From the NCBI GenBank assembly GCA_029204225.1, contig CM055109.1, positions 26,726,178-26,790,177 of the forward strand: a stretch of 64,000 bases of DNA, read 5' to 3'. Within the stretch, counting starts at the first letter, position 1; each line of letters begins with the position of its first letter. The translations under genes and the position numbers were made by a program. The notes below the pieces were generated by a model that was not told the origin of the DNA, ran no database searches, and saw only the letters and a list, made by a program, of their open reading frames with translations. This DNA is from Diphasiastrum complanatum. Taxonomy: Eukaryota; Streptophyta; Lycopodiopsida; Lycopodiales; Lycopodiaceae. Positions 18,401 through 24,400 of this stretch are shown piece after piece.

Positions 18401-21400
18401 CTCAAATAAACCGAGAGATTAAGTTTGCTCCATTTATATTACTGTCTCAATCTAGCCGACTCCCAAATATCCCACGTTACCACATGCAAAACCTCTAAGG
18501 ATGCATTAGATTTGTTATCAAATCTCTACGAGACTCATCTATCAGTTATCAGCTTTAAGTCTTTAATGGATCAGTTATCAGCTGTAGGATGTGCTATTCA
18601 AGATATGATGTCGTTATGACCTTGCTTTATTCTCTTCCAAAGTCATATGAACACTTTGTGGTGATGATCTCCACACAACCGGACCTCACTCTTCAAAAGG
18701 TGATCGGTCATCTTCTTCAAGAAGAAATGCGGAGAAAGACTACCAGCTTGTCCATCAAAGACAAATCCATGGCTCTATACACCAAGAAGAAAGACTATTC
18801 CAAGTGCAGCAGCAATAGCAGAAGCCTCACACTCAAGGTGAGCAAGGTGGATTGCGCAAGAAGCTTTTCTGCAAATATTGCAAGAGAGCCAATCACGACA
18901 TAAAGGAGTGTCGTATTCAGATCTACAACGAGACAAAGAAGCAACAACAGCAACAGCAGTCAAACTCCTCCAACGCGGCGAAATTCAAGGAGCAAGATAC
19001 ACACTTGTTAATGGTTTACCGCAGGCATCTCTACGGCTCTCCATGGAAGTGAAGCGAATGATAAGTGTGGCCGCATCTCTGGTGGTCCTCCATGTTGTGT
19101 CCAGTCCATCTGTCCTATGTCCTAAAGTGGTGTCGTTGGCTTCAGCTACTACATCCTATGTGACCGAGATCCCGTGAACTCGGATATTGTGGGCTTTGTA
19201 GACTCGTGCTTTCTCCTCCGTAATGGTGGCTGAGATGACGGATGAAATGGGGGTGCTCGGTTTGGTGTCTTTTTTCAAGACTGATGCCCAAGAGAGGGCT
19301 TCTTCTTTCTATTGATCGATCTGTTGCTCCATTTCTTTTATCATTGTGGTGGTAGACTCGGAAACTAAATTGGGCTTGTTGTCAATCATTTGTTCCAAAA
19401 TGTACAATCCTGGACTGCATCACATTTATTTCTTTGATCAAAGTTGAAATCGTTTCTTTTAGCTGTGAAAGCTCTTTTTTCATAGCCTGGAAGTCTGTTC
19501 TGAACTGATCCTCTTGCCAAGAGGAGAACAACTCCGTGGATTTGGATGGAGTGTAGGGGATAGCTTGAGTGGAAGAGGAACAAGAAGTAGATGGTCTAGG
19601 AATTCGTAGAAGGCCAACAATAGGAACTAAAGGTAAATGGGCCACTATAGGCACCTGATCTGCAACAGAAGAAGTGGGCGCTGATGTGGCCTGTGGGACG
19701 GCATCTGTGGCATCTAGAACTGCCTGAGTGTCCCCCTTTGTTTGTGTGGTAGTGGATGGCAGCTTAGCATCTGAGGTGGAGGACAGTGAGGCACAAGAAT
19801 TTGATGTAGAGGACAACGAGGTGGCTATTGATGGCTGCAGTGCTGCCACGTGGCCAGCAACAGGTGTGGTACGAGGGGGGGGAGAGAGGCACCTATGTGG
19901 TGGCATGACACCCAGCAGTAGCAGCAGAGAGAGAGAGAGAGAGAGAGAGAGAGAGAGAGAGAGAGAGAGAGAGAGAGAGAGAGAGAGAGAGGAAAGCTTT
20001 ATTAACGTCTTTTGGGCACCCGTGGGTGCATAAGACCAAACAGAAAATATGTACAAGCAATAGTGGCAGCATCATCCATAGGAGGACGTGGCCGTAAAAT
20101 GCTATAAACTAGCTATGAATGAAAGTAGAACAAAAGAGAAGTGAAATAAGCCCACAACCTGGGCTAGGTATAACAGAAGAACTATAGAAAAAGTTCCAAT
20201 GCCCACAACCCGGGCCAAGTGGAGAATAAGTACATATCAATGAAAGTAAGTGTGAAGTATCCGCTAAGTGGAGTGTACAGTGGGTCTTGATGGAGGCAAG
20301 TGGCGACTACATCTGGGCTTTTTCCATGGTGGCACATGGATAGAAATCTCGTCATCGGAGTCATCAGCATGTGCTCGAGGCCGAAAGAAGCTAGTGAGAA
20401 GCAACTGCTGGGAGTCTAACCCTAGGTGATCTGGTACAGGCAGATGAAACTGACAAAGAGTAAGCATCTCACGAACAAGAAGTCCCAAGCAACGAGCATT
20501 AGGATAACTGCGAAGTGTATGTGGGCCTTCACGAAAGAGACAATAATACCTCCCCCGTATCTCATAATACAACGGACATTTGAGGAGGAAATGGACTTCA
20601 TCTTCCACCTCCTGCAACGAGCACAAGCAACATAGACGACGCTCCCGGGGGATATACCATGCACGACCGGCCTCAATAGCAAGCTGATGAGAGGAAATGC
20701 GCAACTGCCCAAGACGATAGCGTAGGCCGTGTGATAGGGGCTGTGAGAGATAGAGCGACAACAATAGCAAACCAGAAGGATCCAGAGAGAGGAAGTGTGT
20801 TTGGTAATAGCTCAGTTGAATGCGGGAAGGTGGGAGGGAGCTCCAAGTCTGCTGCATATATCGGCGAAATAAATAGCCTCGGATATATGAATGTGTACCA
20901 CGAGGAAGATCCATGATAGATATGTCCAGATGCCGTAAGAGATCATACGCCTGTTAATACCAGGAGAGCTTGTCATGGGAATTAGCTAGGACACGTGAAG
21001 AAGTAACCGCAGCAACCATGTATCCATCCGGGTGAGATGCATGAATCTTCTGAAGCCGCTGAAGAAAAAGAATAGGAGGAAAAAGCCCTCAAGGATGATC
21101 CGAGGAGTAGCAAACTCAGCACATAGAATTGTTGGAATATCAATCCACACTCTAGAGATAACTATCAAACATGGTGGATAGCTCAGTGGTAGAGCATCCC
21201 ATCCGGTATGAGGGAGGTCCTAGGTTCGAATCCTAGTCTGTCCATCCATATTATGATTAATGGATTTCTAACATGGTATCAGAGCCAAGTTAGACCTAAC
21301 AGTTCATGGTGTCAAAGCCATGGTTAGGTGGCCCAAGATGTGGGGCAGGTGTAGGACCCCCACCAAGTGTGGCTTGAGGGGGGGTGTTGGAATATCAATC

Positions 21401-24400
21401 CACACTCTAGAGAGAACTATCAAACAGGGCGGATAGCTCAGTGGTAGAGCATCCCATCCGGTACGAGGGAGGTCCTGGGTTCGAATCCTAGTCTGGCCAT
21501 CCATATTATGATTTATGGATTTCTAACAAGAATATCATGAAGGGTGGTAGTCTTGGCACGTATCATGCGACCCAACACAGTGGCCTAAATGCGGGAAATG
21601 CTTGCTTAGTCCCGGAGAGAAACTCCTGGCAACCAGACCTTGGAGGCATACATCACTGCTGGAACCACCCGTGTGTGACAACTGGCATCTAGTAGCAAGA
21701 TCAAAAATATGATTCATTGTACAACCACGCTCGAACTGGACCAATGCCGAAAGACCGGAGGAAATGTGCGCAAATGCAGCCTGGCGGAAACCAAGAAGGG
21801 ACGCAATAAACAGGACTCCCAAGTAAGTATAAGAGGTAACAATGTCAACTTCGTGGCCATCATAGAAGAATTGATGATTGTAAAGGCTTTGTCGATTGGT
21901 GTTGAAAATCATGATCTTCGTCTTTTTTAACTTAACATAGAGACCCCAAGCAACACAAAACCGATGTAAGACTTGTAAGTGACACTGCAACCCTTCTGGT
22001 GAGGGAGAAAGCATAACAATGTCATCAGCATAAAGCAGAATGGGGATGAGCAAATGAGCCAGCGGGCAACCATCTCCACCTTTTTCACGAATGAGGCGCT
22101 CAAGATCATCAATATAAAGTGCAAACAACGGAGGGGACAGTGGACAGCCTTTCTTGACACCAACAGTGCGATGGATGGGAGAAGACAAATCAGTACCCAG
22201 CCGAATACGAGAACTCTCTCATATAGAGCAACCATTGTCACGAGAATAGAGTCGGAAAAGCCAAGCTGACGTAGTTTGTTGACCAAAGATGACGGGGAAC
22301 AGTATCAAAGGCCTTAGAGAGATCAACGAAACAAGCAAATACCTTCTTGCCCATATGCTTTGCCTCCTCAATGATAGTACGTAGGGTGAGGACATGATCA
22401 AGAGTGCTATAACCCCGGCGAAAGCCAGCCTGGCCAATCGCATACAATAGTCGAGAATCAGCCTCTACCGTAACAAAGTTCTGGAGAATAGTCGTGTACA
22501 ACTTGGCCATAGTATGAACAATCATTATAGTGCGATAGTTGTGGACATTCATGACATTGCCTGCTTTAAGAATGAGGTGAAGGAGATTGGTGGCCCAAGG
22601 TATGGGGAAACCATCAACGACAGAGTGGTTGAAACAACGGGCCAGGAAAGGGGAGGCGAGTTTGGCAACTGGTTTGAGGAGCTCGGCTGAAAGGAGGTCA
22701 ATGTCAGGCGTACGATTGTTCTTGAGTTTGCAGATGGTGGCTTCGACCATGTCAGGAGCAAAGAGGTCTTAGTGGGTAGGACGAGAAGAAAGAGAGATGG
22801 AAAGGTGAGTAGTTGTATATAGGTTGGTTTCATAGTCGACCCAGGATTGAAGAGGGATGGGTGCAATGGATAGGGGCTTATGAAGAAAGATCTTCCAAAA
22901 AGTAGCCAAGGAAGCAAAGAGTGCGCGCACGAGAGAGAGAGAGAGAGAGAGAGAGAGAGAGAGAGAGAGAGAGAGAGAGAGAGAGAGAGAGAGAGAGAGA
23001 GAGAGAAGAAGAAGAAGAAGAAGAAGAAGAAGGAGAAGGAAAGAAAAAAAGAAAGATTTATTAACATCTTTTGGGCACTCGTGGGTGCATAAGACCAAAA
23101 AGAAAATATGTACAAGCAATAGCGGGAGCATCATCAATAGGAGGACATGGTCGTAAAATGCTAAGAGAGAGAGAGAGAGAGAGATTTTGTTAATGTCTTT
23201 TCCATGCCAATAGGCATATAAGACGAAAAAAAGTACATATTGAGTGTGTGGTACAACACGAGCGTATGAAACGTCTCCATAACATAAAAGAAAAGCATGT
23301 GTACTACAACTACAAAAATAGAGTATGTCTAATGCAAGAGAGTCATGTCCTCAAATACTGTTGCTGTCAAAGAAAGATGTGATGGGGATAATGTCTGGAG
23401 GTAGTCTCGATAAATGCTGCTAATGTCGCCAAGGAGGTCGTCTCTGAGTAGTGGCTCTCTAGACAATATGAGTAGGTGTAGTGCGCCAGTCTCTGGTGTC
23501 TATGTCTGTAAAAGTCACTGTTGTCGTCGGTGTCATCCGATCCAAGGTCCCCGTCCATGATCTCCTATGGGAGAGAAACATTTTGATCTAGAGCTGTGTG
23601 TCAAGATGAGTATAAGGGAAAGCTCCTCAAGATCTTGCTTACAAGACAAACACACTATGGAGAAACCACCCAACCAAGTAGAAGCAACCAATCAAACTCT
23701 AGAAGCTTCACCCCCAAGCCAAGGAATAGGAAGCATGAAAGTAGAGTGAGAGCCATCAACCATAAGGTGAGGTAGTAGGGCGAGTTTGGCCTCCTTATAT
23801 AGAGCCTAGAACCACCTATGCACTTAGTTATCCAAGGTCCCAACTCCCCTATACATAGATTCATCTAGAATAGAGTCTCTATACATGGATCGTCTATTCA
23901 TAGAATTGCTATTGATAACTCTACACATGCACATACGGTCCCAAACCTTGTACTAACTCCATTTAGTGTGTTCTGGGCCTCACAAGGATATTAGTTACTT
24001 TCGGGTCACATCTAGTATGATGTGGCATAACCAACAACTTGTTTCACTAGAGTACTGTTGTGTATCCAAGACTAGGAGTATACTGAATCCTATGTACTAG
24101 TCATGGACATAACATTCTTTCCCTCTTAATCTGGTTTTGTCCTCAAAACAGGAAAGAATTACAGGAACAGTTCCTTTAACTTTCTTCAATGACCTTGAAA
24201 ATCATTATCCTTAGTTTGACTTTCTTGTCAACCAAGTACTCAGAGTTAAAATTGGGTTCCAATCATATAACCTCTGTCTTGGAGTACAACTCAGGTTTGG
24301 AAAGTGCACTAAGCGATAAATTTTTCATTTGGGCTACACTCATCACAAGTTAGTAACATCACCTTAATGTTAAACACTTACATGAAATACTGAGTGAAAT

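Follow-up and report, generated by a model that had tools for sequence, protein, structure and literature searches.

The window, a stretch of 64,000 nucleotides of Diphasiastrum complanatum DNA (NCBI GenBank assembly GCA_029204225.1, contig CM055109.1, positions 26,726,178 to 26,790,177 of the forward strand), contains a terminal-repeat retrotransposon in miniature (TRIM) whose two long terminal repeats (LTRs) each carry a tRNA-like block. TRIMs with tRNA-like LTRs were named Helenus by Kojima in 2024 (Biology 13:119, PMC10886601) and have been described there from fungi, animals and one plant, Selaginella moellendorffii. Judged by its sequence, the window element belongs to a TRIM family of Helenus type and is a further member of this published kind, since it displays the tested features of the Kojima definition. 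The element is probably best explained, as a whole, as a non-autonomous Helenus-type TRIM of about 400 bp whose RNA would be started by RNA polymerase III (Pol III) and which would be mobilised by Copia elements.

Structure of the window element

As read from the sequence, the TRIM measures 399 bp, below the limit of about 1 kb that applies to TRIMs, and consists of two 144-bp LTRs and a 111-bp interior with no coding capacity. The LTRs, each of the form TG...CA, are identical at 137 of 144 bases (95%). The primer binding site (PBS) TGGTATCAGAGC follows the 5' LTR directly and is assumed to be that of the initiator Met-tRNA, a G-rich polypurine tract (PPT) directly precedes the 3' LTR, and no poly-A tail was seen in the element. 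The original prediction had described this architecture, with its Met-type PBS, PPT and AGAAT target site duplication (TSD), and every part lies where it had been placed. Most of the sister copies compared have an interior of 116 bp, 5 bp more than the window copy. The features are as follows, with their basis in brackets.

21125..21129, + strand: left target site duplication AGAAT (sequence)
21130..21273, + strand: 5' LTR, 144 bp, TGTTGG...CTAACA (sequence, LTR comparison)
21166..21168, + strand: CAA triplet, 6 to 4 bases ahead of the tRNA-like block (sequence; 95/97 distinct LTRs)
21172..21244, + strand: tRNA-like block of the 5' LTR (ARAGORN; Rfam RF00005, 41.9 bits)
21179..21189, + strand: box A of the 5' LTR, TAGCTCAGTGG (sequence)
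21223..21233, + strand: box B of the 5' LTR, GGTTCGAATCC (sequence)
21274..21384, + strand: interior, 111 bp (sequence)
21274..21285, + strand: PBS, presumed initiator Met-tRNA type (sequence; directly after the 5' LTR)
21307..21319, + strand: decayed second PBS-like copy, TGGTGTCAAAGCC (comparison with the Copia element L106, see below)
21376..21384, + strand: PPT, GAGGGGGGG (sequence; directly ahead of the 3' LTR)
21385..21528, + strand: 3' LTR, 144 bp (sequence, LTR comparison)
21427..21499, + strand: tRNA-like block of the 3' LTR (ARAGORN; Rfam RF00005, 46.1 bits)
21434..21444, + strand: box A of the 3' LTR (sequence)
21478..21488, + strand: box B of the 3' LTR (sequence)
21529..21533, + strand: right target site duplication AGAAT (sequence)

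Copies in the host genome

The host assembly comprises 1.745 Gb in 5,176 contigs, the window lying on C18. A whole-genome search, in which 40 of 1,547 candidates were scored, gave at least 47 matches. Patterns allowing up to 2 mismatches of 28 revealed 1,770 LTR starts and 914 interior starts genome-wide, a ratio of about 1.94, and the reversed-pattern controls for both had 0 matches in the whole genome. The figure of 914 slightly overstates the interiors, because the interior pattern also matches non-TRIM-LTR sites (35 exact ones). Solo LTRs seem to be few.

Chains of LTRs and interiors were examined at loci L001 to L088 and in the window, with repeats of the same flanks removed. After this de-duplication 40 LTR-interior-LTR chains were retained, among them 30 distinct, single copies complete at both ends, the window copy included. 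Exact 5-bp TSDs border 22 of these 30, all 22 being different, and are missing from the other 8; as a control, 0 of 870 mismatched flank pairings agreed as a target duplication. Within each of the 30 complete copies the two LTRs are identical or differ at up to 7 bases (mean 2.1%), and the examined copies are biased to young ones because they were chosen as best matches to the window. The recurrence of paired LTRs at many places shows that the window structure is not due to chance, and the further copies with distinct 5-bp TSDs that had been anticipated do exist.

Ten chains contain multiple units or an irregular order, and four of them are enclosed by a single TSD. There are also six LTR-only chains, with two complete LTRs, one of which (L058) has a TSD. 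Besides tandem arrays of LTR and interior, the family includes one or more solo LTRs. The array at L026 (G000:C14:16608500-16611500) holds five LTRs and four interiors within one TSD, GAAAC; a change near the 3' end, common to the first three of these LTRs, reduces the distance from unit to unit to 244 bp, compared with 260 in ordinary arrays. At C3:60453158 and C3:60454627, 1,469 bp apart, tRNA-bearing LTR variants end in CCAACA followed by GTGGTATCAGAG. They possibly belong to a longer relative of the TRIM.

The tRNA-like block

Both window blocks were called tRNA-Thr(GGT) by ARAGORN, and their Rfam tRNA scores, 41.9 bits for the 5' block and 46.1 bits for the 3' block, exceed the gathering score of 29. 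The 73-base tRNA-like block with A and B boxes that had been proposed for each LTR is supported by both programs, the Rfam result being the Infernal check that had been suggested for it. The Rfam scan covered window positions 20900-21760 with matches listed up to E 1; apart from the tRNA matches of the two blocks it listed one plastid element, which was below threshold, and neither 5S rRNA nor any hammerhead ribozyme family matched in that range.

Conservation was counted over 97 distinct complete LTRs. Measured against the consensus forms of the two promoter boxes, box A is present as TRGCNNAGNGG in 91 of them, box B as GGTTCGANTCC in 84, and box A followed by box B in 80. A run of four T, the usual Pol III stop, occurs in one LTR and is lacking in 96. 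A tRNA was reported by ARAGORN in 93 LTRs, and a tRNA-Thr in 83, which means that a whole-genome run would probably report many false tRNA genes. TRIM LTRs that mimic tRNA genes call for caution among annotators. The triplet CAA stands just ahead of the block in 95 of the 97 LTRs, and in plant tRNA genes CAA within the last 10 bases upstream can be a start element (PMC11700998).

In the minimum-energy fold, the 5' block does not form a cloverleaf and the 3' block comes near to one. When three sequences were compared, the tRNA structure paired 93.3% of cells, each sequence having one unpaired position in the acceptor stem; the single double-sided change was matched by 191 of 500 shuffles. A parental tRNA gene was sought by a pattern with the same boxes and a base other than A after box A, and this candidate was dropped, as all 7 matches are TRIM-like by their letters.

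A second family with tRNA-like LTRs

When the PBS was sought behind box B with other spacings, the pattern matched 13 times in the genome, five times in a different LTR. The example at L113 (G000:C18:39094440-39094840, 401 bases) has an LTR at 27-184 (158 bp), a PBS at 185, a 73-bp interior and a PPT, and a further LTR begins at 258. As a tRNA, the first of its blocks scores 49.1 bits and the second only 18 bits, and the block is also preceded by CAA. A looser pattern of box A and box B gave 205 matches; the 59 with letters shown comprise 56 of the second family, one resembling the first family and two resembling tRNA-Cys. Among 100 places listed for this looser pattern, 14 pairs 225-226 bp apart were counted by eye, and PPT-LTR junctions of the second family number 407 genome-wide.

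When the two families are aligned, the tRNA-like block is identical at 57 of 73 positions, compared with 16 of 36 in the upstream flank and 10 of 29 in the downstream flank, and box A is identical at 11 of 11. The PPT and PBS are similar as well. The likeness of the blocks is what a promoter kept in both families would look like, and a double gain of the same tRNA or short interspersed nuclear element (SINE) would explain it too. The sequences at C3:69266848 and C5:59016425 are presumably of tRNA-Cys type; this sequence has the 18-base stretch at box A in common, and the second-family block matches it at 36 of 50 positions. This hints, and no more, at a Cys-type origin of the block. A compensatory change in the anticodon stem between the families was rejected as a candidate: the alignment register had shifted, and only pair 7-66 is doubly changed, a result that the same 191 of 500 shuffles match.

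Link with Copia elements

With TRIM LTR ends excluded, the PBS followed by CAAGTT occurs at 72 genome sites, and with AGRCC in addition at 35, of which 16 were fetched. At nine of the 16 (L089, L091, L092, L095, L098-L101 and L103), foreign sequence, in part Copia, is joined at the PBS to the TRIM interior and an LTR start. Only the first 46 and 65 bases of the TRIM LTR matched at L089 and L091, respectively, and an inverted TRIM piece lies upstream at L092. The other seven comprise three TRIM variants (L094, L096, L097), a diverged copy (L093), a locus without a following TRIM LTR (L104) and two that share only the first 56-57 bases (L090, L102).

A partner candidate is the Copia element L106, the extended form of L090. 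It encodes a copia-type gag (E 2e-36), a gag_pre-integrs domain (E 1.7e-12) and an SH3-like retroviral polymerase domain (E 2.1e-16), with integrase core matches below the cut-offs. The stretch after its PBS is 89.5% identical to the first 57 bases of the TRIM interior (E 2.3e-15). The PBS of L106 is doubled, two intact copies being present with the second 33 bases after the first; the spacing is equal in the TRIM, whose second copy has decayed, and the L113 family has one copy. The LTR border may once have moved. The sequence that precedes the PBS in L090 recurs at L100 ahead of the TRIM interior (95.5% over 245 bp). The extended form of L102, L105, has 56 interior bases in common with the TRIM, and no Copia gene is apparent in its listed frames. 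L107 (G000:C20:30984800-30988600) is a mosaic in which TRIM LTR and TRIM interior stand beside the remains of a Copia reverse transcriptase and some 1.06 kb of sequence that is repeated; a junction falls at the primer site. In one frame RVT_2 was partly matched at 30.2 bits, a little under the cut-off of 31.6 (E 4.4e-07); of its other frames, one had no match in Pfam or among solved structures and two more had none in Pfam. These other frames are tentatively read as RNase H.

A TSD around the junctions was sought by taking the 5 bases after the TRIM 3' LTR and looking for them, followed by TG, upstream of the PBS. At the loci with readable 3' ends (L092, L095, L098-L101 and L103) the first stretch held no 5-bp match. 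With longer flanks, L108 gave one 5-bp match at a place not tied to an LTR start. In L110, the extended form of L103 (G000:C2:7991800-7996600), AGTGA occurs on both sides (reverse strand 769-773 and 3612-3616), on the left immediately flanking an inverted copy (98 bp) of the end of the foreign LTR and on the right immediately flanking the last TRIM LTR. This might be the TSD of a hybrid integrated as one unit. It is suggestive at most and may be chance, because AGTGA is frequent there (9 in 2,830 bases) and this is one such match among several loci. The claim that the junction loci are proven hybrids of reverse transcription was not established, the TSD search having given L110 alone as a candidate; strand transfer, recombination or nested insertion may each have produced them.

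Copia is favoured as the helper because of the shared PBS region, the 5-bp TSD and the junctions, taken together. Kojima likewise inferred Copia as the helper of fungal Helenus (PMC10886601).

Surroundings of the element

The TRIM is inserted just downstream of a reverse transcriptase remnant on the opposite strand, which is a neighbour and lies outside the TRIM. We read it as being of long interspersed nuclear element (LINE) type.

21538..22768, - strand: two RVT_1 pieces of a decayed LINE-type reverse transcriptase (Pfam, E 1.9e-17 and 6.5e-08)

Elsewhere in the window, a Copia reverse transcriptase fragment occupies 55174-55869 on the + strand (RVT_2, E 3.9e-65), and long GA/CT simple repeats at 4954-5481, 19382-20071 and 22549-23350 have open frames of RE or SL repeats.

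Proposed mechanism and alternatives

The explanation preferred here would work as follows. Pol III would start RNA from the A and B boxes of the tRNA-like block in the 5' LTR, and this RNA would run through the TRIM into the 3' LTR. Copia proteins would package this RNA, and reverse transcription primed by initiator Met-tRNA would yield a copy for them to integrate. The block would be a promoter, and neither the primer nor a working tRNA. Pol III transcription of the TRIM is what we infer from the sequence. A wider proposal can be built on this, in which Pol III RNA of the TRIM and RNA of Copia made by RNA polymerase II (Pol II) are packed together, and strand transfer at the common PBS yields hybrids of Copia LTR and TRIM that integrate as one; the block would have been selected as a promoter, and the two families would have kept little beyond block, PBS and PPT. 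This combined proposal is tentative, and we regard it as rather unlikely.

Several results weigh against the preferred explanation. The folds of the 73-base RNAs are no more stable than those of shuffled sequences (z -0.14 and +0.29). Among the examined copies, per-site variation is 0.0176 in the block (0.0156 without CpG), compared with 0.005 upstream and 0.0073 downstream in the LTR; the block being more variable than its flanks, there is no sign of purifying selection on it in these copies. Between the families, only 8 of the 11 box B positions agree, and of the 10 bases ahead of the block only 3. Depletion of TTTT was considered as a sign of Pol III read-through and rejected, since 685 of 1000 shuffles were also free of TTTT. 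On the Copia side, no second LTR of L106 was seen in 7.1 kb and RVT_2 was not matched in the tested frame, which makes L106 a damaged or incomplete partner candidate. The foreign sequence at L100 lacks its 5' part, and among the foreign junctions only L110 offers a TSD, possibly by chance.

Some of these observations would be expected if the element were an ordinary TRIM transcribed by Pol II, with the block a passenger from an old tRNA or SINE insertion and no promoter role. The block is not conserved beyond its surroundings among the examined copies, it has no significant fold, and T4 is found in only one of 97 LTRs. Such a passenger would hardly have stayed alike between families (57/73) while its flanks did not, nor would it be expected to keep box A at 11 of 11 or CAA ahead of it, both in 95 of 97 LTRs and in L113, and we judge this account unlikely. 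The interfamily likeness would lose this meaning if the block had been gained twice from the same donor tRNA or SINE, with no selection for a promoter. The flanks of the two LTR families hardly align, which would suit a double gain, and several independent origins of Helenus were proposed by Kojima (PMC10886601). Against it, both blocks depart alike from the tRNA-Cys-like sequence (CCCA..CCGG and the start of the T arm), and the similar PPT and PBS fit one ancestral element. A double gain is doubtful on balance, and it is the alternative that deserves to be taken most seriously.

Two further possibilities are very improbable. If the element were two joined copies of a tRNA-derived SINE mobilised by a LINE, the tRNA-like blocks with their A and B boxes and the place next to a LINE-type remnant would be accounted for; the original prediction had named a variable interior and an inconstant primer site as the marks of such a dimer. 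The copies show instead a constant interior with PBS and PPT, arrays of LTR and interior, a solo LTR with a TSD, close to two LTR starts per interior start, a PBS region common to Copia and no poly-A tail; the dimer is excluded because 22 of the 30 complete copies have exact and all-different 5-bp TSDs. Hardly more credible is a tandem duplication of two real tRNA-Thr genes. ARAGORN and Rfam do call tRNA, but the many dispersed copies with TSDs, the one position of the acceptor stem that stays unpaired in all three compared sequences and the presence of T4 in a single LTR out of 97 speak against working genes.

Comparison with known systems

SINEs derived from tRNA have no LTRs or PBS, their TSDs vary in length and they end in an A-rich or simple-repeat tail, whereas the window family has LTRs, a PBS and 5-bp TSDs. 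Retrozymes carry a hammerhead ribozyme in the LTR, and the Rfam scan of positions 20900-21760 up to E 1 matched no hammerhead family.

Other plant TRIMs, surveyed by Gao in 2016 with Selaginella included (PMC4717578), are likewise small, non-coding LTR elements that form arrays, but a word search of the main text found no mention of tRNA. Larger relatives were reported there for only 11 of 289 TRIM subfamilies. Ajax, another TRIM with a 5-bp TSD, likewise has the promoter sequence of a small RNA in its LTRs, but this is derived from 5S rRNA, and the element was found in two nemerteans (PMC10886601). Cassandra is also a TRIM with Pol III promoter sequence in its LTRs and forms tandem arrays (Kalendar 2020, PMC7215508; PMC10853983); its PBS is defined by the identical string TGGTATCAGAGC (PMC7215508). 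Its LTRs hold 5S sequence with promoters and terminators (PMC7215508), whereas those of the window family are tRNA-like and lack T4 in 96 of 97 cases. The parallel to Cassandra built on a tRNA, which the original prediction had drawn, was right in identity.

Whether such a family had been published was left open by that prediction. The kind is in print as Helenus, whose transcription by Pol III is described there as unvalidated (PMC10886601). Among open-licence PMC papers, judged by titles and abstract openings, no publication on the TRIM family of the window was found, and a search for Helenus with retrotransposon and tRNA gave PMC10886601 alone. In that defining paper, Helenus is known in plants from Selaginella alone. 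What the present sequences appear to add is a second family with tRNA-like LTRs, a candidate Copia partner and the conservation of the block between families. Two such families, many copies and a Copia candidate provide material for asking whether Pol III RNA feeds an LTR cycle.

The likeness to Helenus is close (PMC10886601). Both LTRs have tRNA-like sequence with A and B boxes, a PBS and a PPT are present, and the 5-bp TSD is that of the fungal and plant members. The copies here measure 399-404 bp, within the published 311-1263 bp; tandem arrays have been published for a zebrafish family, and the link with Copia is found in fungi too. The primer here is of the 3'-end Met-tRNA type, whereas most fungal families use the anticodon loop (PMC10886601). 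The Selaginella family, Helenus-1_SMo, has 120-bp LTRs and an 85-bp interior (PMC10886601); judged by length, the window family is a different one. For the plant Helenus no partner is named in the portions of Kojima's paper used for this comparison (PMC10886601), whereas the Diphasiastrum family has a candidate partner in Copia.

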